Assembly (NCBI RefSeq): GCF_019008365.1
Contig: NZ_JAHHUL010000025.1
Coordinates: 1 to 51,291 of the forward strand
Reading direction: 5' to 3'
DNA from: Phosphitispora fastidiosa
GTDB taxonomy: Bacteria; Bacillota; Thermincolia; Thermincolales; UBA2595
DNA: 51,291 nt
In this document: positions 30,671-48,348 of the stretch, one piece after another
Layout: the number at the start of each line of letters is the position of its first letter
Numbering within the stretch: position 1 is the stretch's first letter
Position numbers and translations under genes: made by a program
Notes under the pieces: model-generated
Told to the model about the DNA's origin: nothing
The model's input: the letters and a program-made list of their open reading frames with translations, nothing else
Database searches by the model: none

Positions 30671-30673
30671 TAA

Positions 30674-30870
30674 GCTCCGGAAATGGCTGATAATGACATA
30701 TGGTGAGCTGTTGCACCGATTTTCCGCAATGCCGCCTATGAGTCTAAACTGCAATCCCCCGGCAGCAAGGCAGCGTCCCCGAACTCGATGGCTCACTGAG
30801 TTGTCTCATAAGAAGCCGCCAGGAAAATCTTGTACAACAGCTCACCATATGCCGCAGCCATTTCCGGAGC
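30674..30870. repeat. Palindromic repeat element A (MITE-like)
   Basis: A 197-bp element with perfect terminal inverted repeats (16 bp at 30674-30689/30855-30870, then 17 bp at 30697-30713/30835-30851). Its left half (about 30708-30795) is closely similar to 46278-46366 of element B. No ORF of its own. It lies between a plus-strand gene and a minus-strand gene. Confidence 0.8.
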
Positions 30871-30938
30871 CAACCCAGGGAGGGTGACACCCAATATAAA
30901 AATTTCTGTTGCCGAGGTGCTTACATAGTTGTTAGAAG

Positions 30939-31357: not shown

Positions 31358-34150
31358 TTATACCTGTCTTACCGCGTCCAGGCATTTTCCACACAGGGTC
31401 GTATAAACTGCATCCTTGCCAACTTCTTCACTGTATGTCCAACAGCGTTCACACTTGCCCCCTGCAGCCTGGGCCACTTTCACTTTAAGTCCCGGCATTT
31501 CCTCCGAAACAAATACATCTCCGGAAGCATTATCGATATTTTCCAGTTCTGCCCGGGAAACAATCAGGATAGAGGCCAGTTGGTCTGCTACCGGTTCAAG
31601 GAATGTGTAAAGCTCCTCACCGGCATATACTGTCACCGCAGCATCCATGGAATGGCCGATAACTTTATCCCGGCGGGCCTGCTCTAATACTTTGGCAATT
31701 TCATTTCGGGCCTTGATAATTTTCTCCCACTTGGCCTCGAGCTTTTCATCGATATAGTCTTCCCTGATCTGAGGCATTTCAGCCAGCTGGACACTTCCGG
31801 GCTCACCGGCAGATCGCGGAATATACCGCCAGAGTTCTTCTGAAGTAAATGCCAATACAGGAGCGATAATCCTGACGAGTGACGTTATAATCTCATACAT
31901 GACAGTCTGGGCAGCGCGGCGCTCTCCGGAATCCGGCAAAGAAGTGTATACCCTGTCTTTAGCAATATCCAGGTAAAATGCGCTCATATCAACGGCACAG
32001 AAATTGTGTACCGCATGATAAACAACATGGAACTCATAGTTATCATAAGCATTTAAAACCCGCTTGCTCAGCTTGTGAAGCTTTAGCAGGGCCCACCTGT
32101 CAAGCTCTGTCAGTTCATTATAGGCTACCCTGTCATACTCAGGGTCAAAATCATAGAGGTTCCCCAGGAGATATCGCGCTGTATTCCTGATTTTACGGTA
32201 TGCCTCTGACATCTGTTTCAGGATTCCCTTGGATACGGCCACATCTGCCTTATAATCAGCCGAGGATACCCACAGCCTGAGAATATCGGCCCCCATTTGC
32301 TTAATCACTTCAAGGGGGTCGGTCACATTCCCTTGTGACTTGGACTCTTTCCGGCCCTGTTCATCAACCAAAAAACCATGGGTCAGGACAGTCCCGTAAG
32401 GCGCCTTTCCGGTAGTAGCAACTGAAGTACAAAGTGATGAGTTGAACCATCCCCTATGCTGGTCACTGCCTTCCAGGTAAAGGTCAGCAGGCCAGGTGAG
32501 ATCCGGCCAGTACTGGGGCTGGGTAAGCACCGCCCAGTGGCTGGAACCCGAATCAAACCAAACATCCATGATATCTGTCTCCTTGCGGAACCTGCCGCTG
32601 CCGCAAGCCGGGCAGGTTATACCCGGAGGCATAAGGTCCTTAGCTTCCCTGGCGAACCAGACATCTGAACCGTTTTCCTTTACCAGTTCCTTGATATGCT
32701 CAACAGTCCTGTCATTGATGACCTCTTTGCCGCAGTCCTCACAATAGAAGATGGGAATGGGAACACCCCATGTCCTCTGCCTGGAAATACACCAGTCCCC
32801 GCGGTCGGCAATCATATTATAAATACGGTTACGGCCCCATGACGGGACCCACCTGACTCTGTCAATTTCTTCAAGCGCCTGTTTCCTGAAACCGTCGATT
32901 GAAGCAAACCACTGCTCAGTCGCCCTGAAAAGAATTGGATTCTTACAGCGCCAGCAGTGCGGATACTGGTGCTTGATCCATGACATCTTCATCAGGGCTC
33001 CGATTTCCTCCAGTTTGACAACAACACTCTTATTGGCCTCATCAGTAGTTTGGCCTTCAACAAAACCACCTTCAGCGGTAAACACACCCCTGTTGTCAAG
33101 TGGTGAAATAACCGGAAGGTCGTATTTTTTGCCGACCTCAAAGTCCTCGACACCGTGTCCCGGAGCTGTGTGAACACAACCTGTACCCTGTTCCAAAGTA
33201 ACATGGTCACCCAGAATCAGCAGGGATTCCCGTTCCATAAACGGGTGTCTGCAGGTGATGCCTTCAAGGTCGGAGCCATTGAAATTCTGTTTTACTGCAT
33301 AATTTTCAATGCCGACATCTGCCATAAACTGCTCCAATAACCCCTCAGCCACCAGCAGTTTTTCTCCATTTGCAACCGTTTCCACCAGCACATAGTCAAA
33401 ATCAGGGTGCAGGCAGATGGCGACATTGGCCGGCAATGTCCACGGTGTTGTTGTCCAAATAACCACAAAGGTGTTCTCTTCAGGAAGTACATCCTTACCA
33501 TCCTGCACCGGGAACTTAACATATATAGAAGCAGATTTCTTGTCACCATATTCAACTTCTGCTTCAGCCAGGGCTGTTTCACAGGAAGCACACCAGTATA
33601 CGGGCTTCAGTCCCTTATAGATATAGCCGCGTTTGGCCATTTCTCCAAATACTTCGATCTGCTTAGCCTCGAAATGGGGCTGCAGGGTCAGATAAGGATT
33701 GTCCCAGTCACCCCTGACACCCAGGCGCTTGAACTGCTCCTTCTGGATGCCGACAAATTTCAAGGCATATTCCTGACATTTCTTTCTGAATTCTACGAGC
33801 CCAGCTTCATGGCGGTTGATTCCCAGGGCCTTAATTGCCTGCTGCTCAATGGGGAGCCCATGGGTATCCCATCCGGGAACATAGGGTGCATCAAACCCGT
33901 TCATTGATTTATATTTAACAATAATGTCTTTCAGCACCTTGTTTAAGGTATGTCCCAGATGAATATTGCCATTAGCATATGGAGGCCCGTCATGCAGGAT
34001 AAACTTGGGTCTGCCTTCATTTTTTTCCTGGACCCTCCTGTAAATATCCTGCTTTTCCCAGAAATCAAGTATCTCCGGCTCCCGCTCCGGAAGGTTCCCC
34101 CTCATAGGGAAATCGGTCTGCGGAAGGTTTAGTGTCTTGCTGTAATCCAT
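31358..34150 (-). CDS. ileS: Isoleucyl-tRNA synthetase
   Basis: 930 residues, full length for a bacterial class Ia IleRS. The HIGH motif is PPYANGNIHLGHTLNK; the editing (CP1) domain, a DWCISRQRTWGVPIP segment and a C-terminal zinc finger (CERCW ... CGKC) follow. The second signature reads KESKSQGNV where KMSKSxGNV is expected: Met is Glu and the codon is GAG (see findings). GAGGAGG precedes ATG. A T-box leader controls it by tRNA-Ile charging. Confidence 0.96.
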   Translation of the reverse strand: MDYSKTLNLPQTDFPMRGNLPEREPEILDFWEKQDIYRRVQEKNEGRPKFILHDGPPYANGNIHLGHTLNKVLKDIIVKYKSMNGFDAPYVPGWDTHGLPIEQQAIKALGINRHEAGLVEFRKKCQEYALKFVGIQKEQFKRLGVRGDWDNPYLTLQPHFEAKQIEVFGEMAKRGYIYKGLKPVYWCASCETALAEAEVEYGDKKSASIYVKFPVQDGKDVLPEENTFVVIWTTTPWTLPANVAICLHPDFDYVLVETVANGEKLLVAEGLLEQFMADVGIENYAVKQNFNGSDLEGITCRHPFMERESLLILGDHVTLEQGTGCVHTAPGHGVEDFEVGKKYDLPVISPLDNRGVFTAEGGFVEGQTTDEANKSVVVKLEEIGALMKMSWIKHQYPHCWRCKNPILFRATEQWFASIDGFRKQALEEIDRVRWVPSWGRNRIYNMIADRGDWCISRQRTWGVPIPIFYCEDCGKEVINDRTVEHIKELVKENGSDVWFAREAKDLMPPGITCPACGSGRFRKETDIMDVWFDSGSSHWAVLTQPQYWPDLTWPADLYLEGSDQHRGWFNSSLCTSVATTGKAPYGTVLTHGFLVDEQGRKESKSQGNVTDPLEVIKQMGADILRLWVSSADYKADVAVSKGILKQMSEAYRKIRNTARYLLGNLYDFDPEYDRVAYNELTELDRWALLKLHKLSKRVLNAYDNYEFHVVYHAVHNFCAVDMSAFYLDIAKDRVYTSLPDSGERRAAQTVMYEIITSLVRIIAPVLAFTSEELWRYIPRSAGEPGSVQLAEMPQIREDYIDEKLEAKWEKIIKARNEIAKVLEQARRDKVIGHSMDAAVTVYAGEELYTFLEPVADQLASILIVSRAELENIDNASGDVFVSEEMPGLKVKVAQAAGGKCERCWTYSEEVGKDAVYTTLCGKCLDAVRQV

Positions 34151-34183: not shown

Positions 34184-34467
34184 TAAAAAAACCCCGTCCC
34201 ATAGGGACGGGAGTAGTTTTCCCGCGGTACCACCCTAAATTCCGTTATAGCTGACAGGCATCATCACTCGGCACTGCCAGTACGGCTCTTATTTGCCTGC
34301 AGGATAACGGCTGCACCGGTACAGCTTACTCAACTTTCGGCTGCACAACTCCGGAGTGATTTTCGGCACTGTTACAGCGTCCGGCTCGCACCCTCCCGGA
34401 CTCGCTGACCCTGTTTAAGGCCTACTCGCTCCTTCATGGTCATTAATTTTATTCCTGAAACAATTAT
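34184..34467 (-). promoter_or_regulatory. Isoleucine T-box leader of ileS
   Basis: The T-box sequence AGGGTGGTACCGCGG (34236-34222, minus) is followed by the terminator CCCGTCCC-TAT-GGGACGGGG and T7 (34211-34185). Stem I starts near 34436 (GAGCGAGTAGG). The specifier ATC lies at 34360-34358 in AAAATCACTCC, naming Ile. Uncharged tRNA-Ile would stabilise the antiterminator and switch on ileS. Confidence 0.95.
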
Positions 34468-43296: not shown

Positions 43297-44367
43297 ATGT
43301 TTAACCGGGAAAAACCATTATGGCTTTTTGTAATAATTACTCTTACATTAGTCATGATGGGTTCTCTGGCAGGTTGCGGCGGTGATGACGACGAACTGGT
43401 GCTCAGGTACATCGCGGACGAGTTGGATTCAGCCAAAACTGCAGCCCCTGAAAACGGTGAAAAATCCGGTTCCGGGGCAGCTGCCCAGATAATCGAAGCA
43501 ACAAACAGCTACCTTAACACAGGAAAAGCGCCGACTATTTCTGTCGAGGACGTCTACAATAATGTTATCATAGGAAAAGATCCCAGCTATCAAATCCTGA
43601 GTATCCGCAAACCGGAGGACTACGCCAGGGGACACCTTCAAGGAGCCATTAACGTGCAGTTCGGGCAGATTTATAAACAAGAAAACCTGGACAAACTGGA
43701 TAAAAACAAGAAGATTATCGTAGTTTGCTATACAGGACATACCGCCAGTTATGCTGCCATGTTCCTAAATCAGCTCGGCTATGAAGCCTATGCCATGAAA
43801 TTCGGCATGATGGGCTGGACTTCGGACAGTGATGTCCTTGCTCTGACCCCATTCACCAAAGCTGCAGACTATCCGGTAGAAACCAAGGTTAATACCGCAG
43901 AACCCACCCATGACCTACCGGCAATCAGCACCGGAGCCAAGGATGCTGCAGGTATTGTTGCTGCCCGCACTGGGGAATACCTGACATCAGGCAGGGCTCC
44001 AACCACCTCAGTGGAGGATGTCTATAATAATGCAGTTGTTAACAAAGACTCTGATTACTTCATTCTCAGCATTCGCAGACCGGAGGATTATGCCAAGGGA
44101 CATATCCCCGGCGCTGTAAACATACCTTTTGCCCAGCTCGCCAAAGAGGAGAACCTGAAAAAACTGCCGCCAGACAAAAAAATTATCGTTGTCTGCTATA
44201 CAGGACATACCGCCAGTTATGCTGCTATGTTTCTGAATCAACTTGGATATGAAGCCTATGCCATGAAATTCAGCATGATGGGCTGGACCTCGGACAGTGA
44301 TGTCCTTGCCCTTGTACCGTTTACAGGAGCGCCGGGTTATCCTACTGTATCCGGCCCCAACCCTTAA
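43297..44367 (+). CDS. Secreted lipoprotein with two rhodanese domains
   Basis: 356 residues. The signal peptide ends in a lipobox (MMGSLAGC, Cys about 27) for anchoring outside the membrane. Two rhodanese domains follow (about 70-195 and 225-350), each with the active-site loop [13 protein letters not shown] 468-bp offset separates the two copies and long DNA stretches are near-identical, showing a recent internal duplication. Each loop keeps its Cys, so both should be able to carry a persulfide. AAGGAGG precedes ATG. It may deliver sulfane sulfur or act in surface redox chemistry. Confidence 0.92.
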
Positions 44368-44414
44368 TCAGTGCAGATTACTTTGAAGATCAATTTATCT
44401 GGGAGGTGAACCAA

Positions 44415-46238
44415 ATGAAAACCCGCCGCGGATGGGGTTTAGGTCTGAAAATGACAATATTTGCAGCTATTCTTGTGATTGTTACCACAGTCATCTTTGC
44501 ATCTGTTGTCATTAACAGGGAAACAAATATGATCAACAGGGAAATCCTGAGTAAAGGAATGAGTATCGGTTCCGCTTTTTACGGGGTAGCCGTCAACAAT
44601 ATTCAGCATAACGAGTTTTATACCATTGAAGAGGGCTTTCTGGCTGTAACCAAGCAAAATAAGGATATCAGTTACCTGATGCTCATTGATAAAAGCGGCA
44701 AAATTTTTGTCCACAGTGACCCCAATGAAAAGGGTAAGGTTTTAAATGACCAGATAACTCAGATGGTATTACCGGTAGATGAAGCCGCATTTGTTGCTGA
44801 ATCTCAGCCGACCGGTGACAAGATATATCATATCGCTATTCCTGTCACCTCCGACCTGGAACGCTGGGGATTATTAAGAATCGGGTTATCAAATACCAAT
44901 GCACAGCTTCAAATCGCAAGCTCACGTAATTATGCCATTGGTTTGTCGATTGTACTGACTCTCATCGGAATCGGAGGTGCGCTGGTGTTCGGAAGAAGCG
45001 TTACCGGACCGATAAAATCACTAGTCAACAGTATGAACCAGATTGCCGCCGGAGACTTCACCGGTGAAGTCAAAGTCAAGTCCTCCGATGAAACCGGGGT
45101 GCTGGCTGATTCGGTAAATACCATGCTCAAGAGTGTCAAAAGACTGATATCTGAAGTAAAAAATGCAGGCCAGCAGATTATTCAATCAAGCCACCAGTTA
45201 GCCGGCCATGCTTCACAAACAGCCGGCTTCACTCAAAATGTCGCCGCCACCATAGAACAGCTTGCAGAGAAAAACAATCAACAGGCTGAAGATGTTACCG
45301 AAACCACCCATACCATTGAACAACTAAATCTCGCGGTTGCTCAAATAGCTTCCGGGGCGCAGGAACAGGCCGGTAATATCAACAACACCTCCTCACTGGT
45401 CAACGATATGGCAGGTGCGATACAGGAACTGGCCACAAACACCAAAAATATCACCGAAGCAGCAAACAAGACTTCTGATGTTGCTAACAGGGGCATGACC
45501 ACAGTTGGGGAAACTATGGATGGCATGGAACGTATTAAAGCCAAAGTCTTTGAGACCGCAGGCAAACTTAAGGAACTGGCCGGGAATTCTGAAAAAATCG
45601 GTGAAATAATTATGGTGATTGACGAAATTGCCGACCAAACCAACCTTCTGGCCTTGAATGCCGCCATAGAGGCAGCCCGGGCAGGAGAATATGGCAAAGG
45701 CTTTGCCGTTGTGGCTGATGAGGTAAGAAAACTGGCTGAGCGCTCAGGCAAAGCAGCCAGGGAAATAGCTGAACTTGTAAAAGGTATCCAAAACGGAACC
45801 GGACGTTCTGTTAAAGCAATGGAAGAAGGCATCAAGGAAGTTGAATACGGTACTGAACTCGGCAAAAATGCCGACCTCGCTTTAAAGGAAATCGCTGAAC
45901 ATATTAATTCAGCCAATGAATTTATGCAGCACATATCCAACGCCGCAGAACATATTGCCGTTAACAGCGAACAGGTTGTTGCCTCCATCGAGAGCCTGGC
46001 AGCCATCGCCGAGGAGAATTCGGCCTCGGCTGAAGAAATGGCAGCCGGAAGTGATCAAGCCCTCTCTGTGGTCAGTAATATTGCCGCAAGTGTTGATACA
46101 ACAGCAAATCTTTCAGAAAAGGTATCTGCTTCCACCCGGGAAATGGTGAACACCTCAACTGAAATTGCCGGGGCATCACAAAACCTTGAAAGACTTGCCC
46201 AAGCGCTGGAACTCTCGATCAGCAAGTTTAAAATCTAA
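44415..46238 (+). CDS. Methyl-accepting chemotaxis protein
   Basis: About 607 residues. TM1 (about 14-32), an extracellular sensing region (about 35-175), TM2 (about 178-198), a HAMP domain (about 198-250), and a long MCP signalling coiled coil with the hairpin tip [44 protein letters not shown] 44415 has GGGAGG 8 nt before. The sensor region contains [19 protein letters not shown], typical of a single-Cache-like ligand domain. It implies motility; the ligand is unknown. It lies 47 nt after the rhodanese lipoprotein and may sense sulfur-linked signals. Confidence 0.93.
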
Positions 46239-46564
46239 CAGTTGGCTTTCGGAAATAACTGGGAATGAAACATGGCGATATGTTGTACCGATTTTCTGCA
46301 CTGCCGCCTATGAGTCTAAACTGCTACCCCCGGCAACAAGCCAGCGTCCCCGAACTTGATGGCTCAATGGGTATTTTTCATTAGAAGACCGCCGGGAAGT
46401 TTTGGCTTGCCAAAACTTCCCGGCGGTCTTCGCCATCTTCGGACATGCGGGGACTCCCTGGCTTGTTGCCTGTAATTGCAGTAAGACTGATAAACGGCGG
46501 CAGTGCAAGGAAAATCTTGTACAACATATCACCCTATTCCACGGTTATTTCCAAAGCCAACTGT
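46238..46564. repeat. Palindromic repeat element B (MITE-like, full-length)
   Basis: A 327-bp region that is an imperfect inverted repeat over its whole length. Outer arms ACAGTTGGCTTT/AAAGCCAACTGT enclose similar left and right halves; the centre is a 23-bp perfect stem (46384-46406/46409-46431) with a TT loop. Its left half matches element A (30674-30870). It fills the gap between the convergent MCP and phoR genes. Confidence 0.8.
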
Positions 46565-46572
46565 CAAGGGAC

Positions 46573-48348
46573 TCATCCTTGGTCACCACTCGGAAGGAAA
46601 AATGTAAAAGTACTGCCCCGGCCTACCCTGCTGGCTATATCTATGGTTCCACCATGGACTTCCAGAATGTGTTTTACTATTGCCAGGCCTAGTCCGGTCC
46701 CACCCATTTCGCGCGATCTGGCCTTATCAACCCGGTAAAAACGTTCAAACAGGCGTGGAATACTCTCCCACGGAATACCGATACCGGTGTCTTTAACCGC
46801 CACTTTAATCCCGTTCTTGACTCTTATAGCAGTAATATTAATGCTGCCCCCCTCAGGGGTATATTTAATGGCATTATCCACAAGATTTATCATAAGCTGC
46901 CCAATCATGTCGCTGTCAACCTTTAATGCAGGTAGTGGGCTCTTTATGTCTACATTAAGGGAAAGGCTTTTTTCATTAGCCTGGGGCGAAAGCACTGATA
47001 CCACATTCGAAATTAGCCTTTCCAGGTTAACAAGCGTCTTATGTATTTCGCCCTGTTTAGCCTCAATCCTGGACAGGCTTAACAAATCTCCGATCAGCCT
47101 ATTCAACCGGTCGGCCTCATCGTTAATTATTTCCAGGAAATGCCTGGCGGTTTCCGGTTCCTTCAGCGCCCCATCCAGCAGCGTCTCCACAAAGCCTTTG
47201 ATGGAAGTTAACGGTGTCCTTAATTCATGGGAGACATTGGCAACAAAGTCTGTTTTCATCCGCTCCACTTCACGAAAGGCCGTTACATCTCTCATCACTG
47301 CGACAACACCTACAACACCAGTTTCGTTGGTAAGAGGGGCGGTGCTTACCCGAAATGTTTTGGGGTCGGGCGTAAATACCTGAAGCTCCCGGGTAATCGA
47401 CTCACTGCTGGACAGCGCCAGGTGGAGAAGCCTTTCCAGGTCAAAGTTACGTACTACCTCAATGACACTTTTCCCCAGGATGTGCTCATATTTTATATGA
47501 AACATCCGTTCTATGGCCGGATTTATCAACAGGATGTTGCCCTTCCCGTCAATAGCAATAACCCCATCATTCATACTGGTAAGAATAGCGCTGACCTTAT
47601 TTCGTTCTTCAGTGATTTGGCTGATGGTGTCCCTGAGACGCTGTGCCATATAGTTAAATCCGCTTCCCAGAGCGCCGATTTCATCTTTTGCCTTTACATC
47701 AACATTTAAATCAAGCTTGCCTTCAGCCATTTCTTTAGCCACCCAGGTCATTTCCTGCAGTGGAACAACCAGAGTTGAGGTAAATGAGGAAACAACAACT
47801 ACAGTCAATATAAGGGCCACAAAAATAGCCGTACCGATACTCCACCTGATATGATTTTGTCCCGCTTCAATCTCACTCCAGGGAACAGCAACCCGAACCG
47901 CCCCGTAAATGTCATTATCTTTTTTTACCGGAACAGCAAAATAAATCATCCGTTTACCCGCACTTGAACTATACCTGATAGCTTTCCCGGTTTGATTATC
48001 CAAGGCCTTCTGAATTTCGGGACGGCTGAAATGATTAACCATAGAATCCTTATCAGCTACTGAATCCCCTAACACCTGTCCTTTGGCGTCGATAACTGTA
48101 ACCCTGGCAGCGATGTCTCTTTGTGCTTCATGAGCATAGACATCAAAATATTCCGCTCCTGCTCCATCTGAAAAATCATCTTTTAGGTTGTCAGCTAGGA
48201 GTTTGGCGTAGGATACCATATTTTCCTGGGTTTTGTCATACAAATACTCTTCCATTAAATTCATCAGGTAGAAGCCCAGCAGGAAAAGAAAGACTGCCGT
48301 GACACTGAAAAATACCGCTGTCAGCCGCCATTTGATGCTTTTGAACAT
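46573..48348 (-). CDS. phoR: Phosphate-sensor histidine kinase PhoR
   Basis: 591 residues. TM1 (about 8-28), an extracytoplasmic domain, TM2 (about 165-185), HAMP, a PAS domain (about 255-350), HisKA with VSHELRTPLTSIKGFVETL (H-box) and HATPase_c with LMINLVDNAIKYTPEGG (N box) and DTGIGIP (G1). This is the PhoR layout of Gram-positive bacteria, where the PAS domain reads teichoic-acid-type signals. It lies 2 nt after phoB, with AAGGAG inside the phoB end. Confidence 0.94.
   Translation of the reverse strand: MFKSIKWRLTAVFFSVTAVFLFLLGFYLMNLMEEYLYDKTQENMVSYAKLLADNLKDDFSDGAGAEYFDVYAHEAQRDIAARVTVIDAKGQVLGDSVADKDSMVNHFSRPEIQKALDNQTGKAIRYSSSAGKRMIYFAVPVKKDNDIYGAVRVAVPWSEIEAGQNHIRWSIGTAIFVALILTVVVVSSFTSTLVVPLQEMTWVAKEMAEGKLDLNVDVKAKDEIGALGSGFNYMAQRLRDTISQITEERNKVSAILTSMNDGVIAIDGKGNILLINPAIERMFHIKYEHILGKSVIEVVRNFDLERLLHLALSSSESITRELQVFTPDPKTFRVSTAPLTNETGVVGVVAVMRDVTAFREVERMKTDFVANVSHELRTPLTSIKGFVETLLDGALKEPETARHFLEIINDEADRLNRLIGDLLSLSRIEAKQGEIHKTLVNLERLISNVVSVLSPQANEKSLSLNVDIKSPLPALKVDSDMIGQLMINLVDNAIKYTPEGGSINITAIRVKNGIKVAVKDTGIGIPWESIPRLFERFYRVDKARSREMGGTGLGLAIVKHILEVHGGTIDIASRVGRGSTFTFFLPSGDQG

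Follow-up and report, generated by a model that had tools for sequence, protein, structure and literature searches.

The palindrome at positions 46238-46564 of the window (that is, of the whole 51,291-nucleotide stretch of Phosphitispora fastidiosa DNA that was analysed) is probably, with a probability of roughly 0.6, one copy of a mobile element of the foldback (MITE-like) kind that is non-autonomous and specific to the Thermincolales lineage, with a preferred position just after stop codons. The family belongs with the known bacterial MITE-like palindromic repeats and, as far as could be found, had itself not been described before: no published description of the repeat was found in the openly searchable literature.

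In the window, the palindrome fills the space between two convergent genes: (i) on the plus strand, a gene for a methyl-accepting chemotaxis protein (MCPsignal and HAMP domains; 44406-46238) whose stop codon abuts the element; and (ii) on the minus strand, a gene for a sensor histidine kinase (HisKA, HATPase_c, PAS and HAMP domains; 46573-48348) whose stop lies 8 nt past the element. Since base 46238 is the last of the upstream gene's TAA stop codon, the element proper corresponds to approximately 46239-46564 and, according to its fold, its inverted repeats and the comparison with its family, it is a full-length (315-type) copy of a giant-hairpin repeat on the plus strand. Three parts can be differentiated on that strand: (i) the left arm (46238-46383), with an outer stem (~46238-46310) followed by the left arm of the core, which carries the conserved CCCCGAACTTGATGGCTCA (family consensus for this segment, CTCGATGGCTCA); (ii) the tip (46384-46431), where a perfect 23-bp stem encloses a loop of 2 nt; and (iii) the right arm (46432-46564), with the conserved TTCGCCATCTTCGGACATGCGGGGACTC and then the outer stem with its end ATTTCCAAAGCCAACTGT. 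The structurally conserved core (46326-46472, plus strand) is matched by the covariance model R1 with 151.8 bits. A small plus-strand hairpin, CAAGGGACTCATCCTTGG (46565-46582), adjoins the right end, overlaps the 3' end of the kinase gene and, judging by its bases, appears to resemble the CCAAGG..CCTTGG hairpin in the tails of other copies.

The original prediction of a near-complete, 327-bp palindrome is confirmed by nested inverted repeats (46238-46266/46536-46564, 46266-46288/46519-46541, 46320-46344/46458-46482 and 46297-46308/46496-46507) and by folds far below those of shuffled sequences on either strand; the mismatch-free central stem that it described also holds (46384-46406/46409-46431, 23 bp, 100% complementary, 2-nt loop). 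As RNA, the segment 46200-46600 has a minimum free energy of -208.4 kcal/mol (z -17.7; 0 of 100 shuffles as low), and 46239-46564 folds into a single hairpin. Compared with shuffles, the minus-strand RNA reaches -198 (z -20.7) and the single-stranded DNA -117.3 (z -16.8). Overall self-complementarity is about 71% and, in consequence, the window copy is a quasi-palindrome except at its tip.

Other features of the window are the following: (i) a T-box leader (34200-34446) upstream of a minus-strand gene for a class I tRNA synthetase (31358-34150), IleRS-like by its zf-FPG_IleRS domain; (ii) a rhodanese gene (two rhodanese domains) with two 281-bp direct repeats of 76% identity (43594-43874 and 44062-44342); and (iii) at the contig end (51029-51291), an array of at least 11 copies of a 15-bp tandem repeat, which overlaps a 409-aa minus-strand ORF.

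The search for further copies that was originally proposed shows that the palindrome is not isolated. A second, internally deleted copy of ~200 bp lies on the plus strand of the window (30673-30876; ~83% identity to 46238-46564). In the window genome (G000; 4.09 Mb, 239 contigs), the element used as query found 21 copies of nearly full length and 19 sites that are shorter or partial, and a search with the conserved-end pattern gave five more, all of them short elements; the copy number that rests on these searches is at least 45 dispersed related sites, 30673-30876 among them. Three size classes can be distinguished: ~315 bp; ~260 bp, which shares the outer stem and differs in the apical core; and ~170 bp, in which the apical core is deleted at GGCAACAAG|ACTCAT. 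The only ORFs that overlap the element are shorter than 100 aa, with no capacity to encode a transposase.

All genomes compared are draft assemblies. The three genomes of the genus all hold many copies, and diverged copies are present in other genera of the same family (G003, G004, G005, G006) and, in a second family of the order, in G009. Among named genomes, a pattern scan located the repeat in Thermincola (T. ferriacetica MAGs); a contig binned as Desulfoscipio also matched, and it is probably misbinned because it comes from the same BL5 sample. Across the phylum, the covariance model of the core matched 5 of 149 sampled genomes, all five in the Thermincolales. Searches of plasmids, phages and IMG/VR gave no match, and spread by plasmid or phage was rejected on that account. 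A known RNA family was also discarded, as Rfam returned nothing credible at gathering or relaxed thresholds; similarly, the resemblance of CCGAACTCG to 5S rRNA was set aside after a relaxed Rfam scan of two copies without any 5S match. In three G009 copies (L083, L079, L086), the outer arm in front of the core is another one, GGTGGGTGGGGT..GGAGCTTTGTGCTGCAAACCC; L083 has it as a tandem repeat on one side. A second, distinct family of hairpin repeats, with a consensus near AGNCAGGGGTAGATGTGTTCCGGAACA.., occurs beside several copies (flanks of L019, L096 and L030; L077) and has numerous matches in G002.

Several copies are recent insertions, because their orthologous sites are empty in relatives. 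The site of L005 is empty in both relatives, which have the same uninterrupted sequence, GCATTAC|TAGTACAAGG. At the site of L003, G002 lacks the element together with its 70-nt right tail; at that of L021, G001 lacks element and tail; at that of L101, the element is absent from G002; and the sites of L103 and L019 are each apparently empty in one relative. Together with the dispersed sites, these empty sites support the earlier suggestion of a folded-back mobile element. A target duplication of constant length was not seen: the L005 junction has none and that of L003 is compatible with 3-4 nt. The locus L104 of G000 has a 19-nt perfect, locus-specific inverted repeat around the element (TTAAGAAATGATTCGCAG / CTGCGAATCATTTCTTAA), part of which is retained in both relatives (orthologs L148 and L173).

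The tails are A-rich and often bear the small CCAAGG..CCTTGG hairpin. In L015 (1816-1990) and in the right flanks of L047 and L020, they have grown into short degenerate tandem repeats such as AAAGATAAAGAG. The left flank of L021 (minus strand) agrees at 20 of 23 positions with the tail consensus taken as its reverse complement, joint-best among ~392,000 positions scanned; this flank forms the 3' end of the upstream gene's coding part and is present in the empty G001 site. From the sequence of this one case, a choice of target by complementarity to the A-rich tail is possible.

The first rival reading is a functional RNA, in which the giant hairpin, co-transcribed with the upstream gene, would serve as a 3'-UTR or intercistronic stabiliser, an RNase III site or a terminator, kept by selection on the RNA. 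Among independent elements with both flanks available (simple ORF calls, hence approximate counts), 30 of 47 have a same-strand gene ending near the left end, 25 of these 30 between -14 and +19 nt, and 17 of 47 have an opposite-strand gene ending at the right end; 19 have a gene end only on the left versus six only on the right. An RNA-level role could be an alternative source of this bias. Copies often start 0-19 nt past a same-strand stop codon, some sit after the terminator of the upstream gene, and a similar role has been proposed for NEMIS and ERIC (PMC2229807). Nevertheless, the bidirectional terminator originally proposed finds no backing in the window copy, with no terminator-like site in 46000-46800 (1.0 expected) and no U-run after the stem on either strand. 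That a transcript of the element is an RNase III substrate is possible.

The conservation of pairing also bears on this reading. When 42 cores from genera across the order are aligned, 96.1% of the cells form standard pairs, both sides have changed in 24 of the 40 pairs, and double-change cells number 108, versus 22.6 after shuffling and 5-25 with the partners slid. Specific unpaired segments are kept as well, namely the TCYCG/CTTCC loop, CGAACT and GGACATGC (five genera). Just beyond the conserved part, the immediate flanks of each copy pair better with their own partner (-10.9 kcal/mol) than with the partners of other copies (-7.8 kcal/mol; 0 of 20,000 permutations), and farther out there is no such preference. 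In 32 full-length copies of the genus, 66 double changes keep Watson-Crick pairing, a number inflated by inherited subfamily changes, versus ~2.4 expected if the two sides were independent. This strong covariation, which spans five genera, and the conserved unpaired bases favour a functional RNA, but selection on one RNA strand should yield an excess of G-U, while single-step departures in the same 32 copies are equally G-U (46) and A-C (49); hence, there is no sign of coupling acting on one RNA strand. On sequence grounds, this points to arm coupling at the DNA level, or to the use of both strands. Given, moreover, that elements are inverted at some orthologous sites and that many copies are missing from the orthologous sites of close relatives, a functional RNA is an unlikely explanation of the family.

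The 23-bp stem illustrates how the arms of a single copy can change. The family consensus of the tip is mismatched (GCCGCC-TCTCG-TTTTGGC opposite GCCAAAA-CTTCC-CGGCGGC), and the G002 ortholog of the window copy (L030/L061) retains TCTCA on its left arm and has no 23-bp perfect core. By contrast with that consensus, the left arm of the window copy reads GGGAAG, the exact complement of its own right arm. By these sequences, the perfect stem is a recent change private to the window copy, with the right arm copied onto the left; being private and recent, it is not the function of the family. Over 76 copies, the perfect stem has a median length of 8 bp. The conversion runs the other way in L111 and L025, which have perfect stems of 22 and 18 bp, so that arm conversions occur in both directions (L001, L111, L025). 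Template switching at quasipalindromes homogenises arms and inverts spacers (PMC8604942, PMC8794818) and the tip conversions are the kind of change that it produces (PMC8794818, PMC8604942, PMC7202029).

Other REARRANGEMENTS at fixed sites consist of opposite orientation, half-copies and differing apical cores, the inversions and core swaps being read from draft assemblies. Orientation is opposite at two orthologous loci (L018/L062; L008 and L055/L048), five half-copies begin precisely at the centre of the palindrome (L049, L022, L063, L112, L114), and apical cores differ at four orthologous loci. The exchange is clean at two of these, where the outer arms are more alike than those of the best other copies: L021/L151 (0.91/0.86 vs 0.84/0.80) and L015/L171 (0.97/0.97 vs 0.80/0.85). 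The other two, L029/L049 and L099/L175, are truncated and carry less weight. Breakage of the extruded hairpin tip, followed by deletion or by repair from a sister copy, would account for inversions, half-copies and core swaps; an SbcC-like gene is present in G000. Outer and inner stems as unrelated nested modules were also considered and rejected: motifs of the Thermincola outer stem recur in the diverged ones of G004, G006 and G009, so divergent homology is more likely across genera, and real core exchange does occur within the genus.

Direct arm conversions in three copies, the strand symmetry of the coupling and the locus-specific pairing of the flanks are what would be expected of mobile debris with no selected structure, its pairing kept solely by template switching inside an existing palindrome. 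Unconstrained conversion should, however, remove mismatched loops, yet those named above are kept in five genera, which makes this second rival decidedly improbable.

The preferred reading, a non-autonomous foldback element, can be expressed as a series of putative steps. From the conservation alone, we infer that the folded form (a single-stranded DNA hairpin or a cruciform) is recognised by a putative trans-acting enzyme, and the specific unpaired bases would be conserved across the order because of this recognition. Template switching during replication and the repair of breaks at the extruded hairpin, with sister copies as donors, would preserve the complementarity of the arms and reshuffle the apical cores. 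Any effects on host mRNA, through a 3'-end or intercistronic hairpin, would be by-products. It is also possible, if doubtful, that recognition of the element depends on the shape of its folded DNA, that the enzyme which moves it resembles neither Y1 transposases nor reverse transcriptases, and that copies of the family repair one another, tip breaks being healed from sister copies and apical cores swapped cassette-like at fixed sites while the outer arms stay.

As for the mobiliser, Y1_Tnp had no match in G001 or G004, both rich in copies; the Y1 loci retrieved have no element nearby; RVT_1 had no match in G001 (99% complete, many copies); and an RVT_1 gene has one weak end match of 30 nt in its vicinity (L210). 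The weight of this missing-enzyme result is limited by the draft state of the assemblies and by partners that may be extinct. An autonomous partner is usual, not invariable, for bacterial MITEs. None with matching ends was found in the draft G000 with the one end pattern searched, the five extra end matches all being short elements. In G002, the L019 locus has an insertion of 2.6 kb that looked promising; it was rejected as an autonomous element, since it holds no full autonomous copy. The last rival, retroposition of a hairpin transcript with an A-rich tail into gene 3' ends, has in its favour that the tails belong to the insertion (L003, L021) and that the half-copies begin at the palindrome centre, but the latter also fit deletion at the hairpin tip and the copy-rich G001 has no RVT_1 match, so it is hardly credible.

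Among known systems, ERIC/RU-1, RUP and NEMIS/Correia are also short, non-coding, dispersed and mostly intergenic, with terminal inverted repeats and long stem-loop transcripts, some with variants of internal sequence (PMC2229807). The Thermincolales element is longer (~315 bp vs <200 bp) and neither TA termini nor a fixed duplication were seen; furthermore, unlike them, it displays structure conserved across an order, and core exchange, arm conversion and inversion at fixed sites. No sequence relation to these families was found, and the element is set apart by their descriptions rather than by direct consensus comparison. REPINs, which RAYT (Y1) transposases mobilise, are likewise non-autonomous and built of inverted repeats, with a single-stranded hairpin as the presumed form that moves (PMC3116915), but the present element is far longer and, as stated above, its copies were found apart from Y1 genes. 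Quasipalindrome template-switch mutation produces the same arm homogenisation, multi-base compensatory change and spacer inversion (PMC8794818, PMC8604942, PMC7202029); it is, however, a mutational process and not an element family, and in the present case dozens of dispersed copies are subject to it.

As a rule, long palindromes are unstable, and their past can seldom be read. In this family, dozens of copies that have diverged, together with orthologous sites, constitute a natural record of two-way arm conversion, inversion, tip truncation and core exchange. The family makes directly testable the question of how hairpin arms stay complementary, whether by selection on RNA or by copying at the DNA level, and it carries a warning: covariation alone does not prove a functional RNA.
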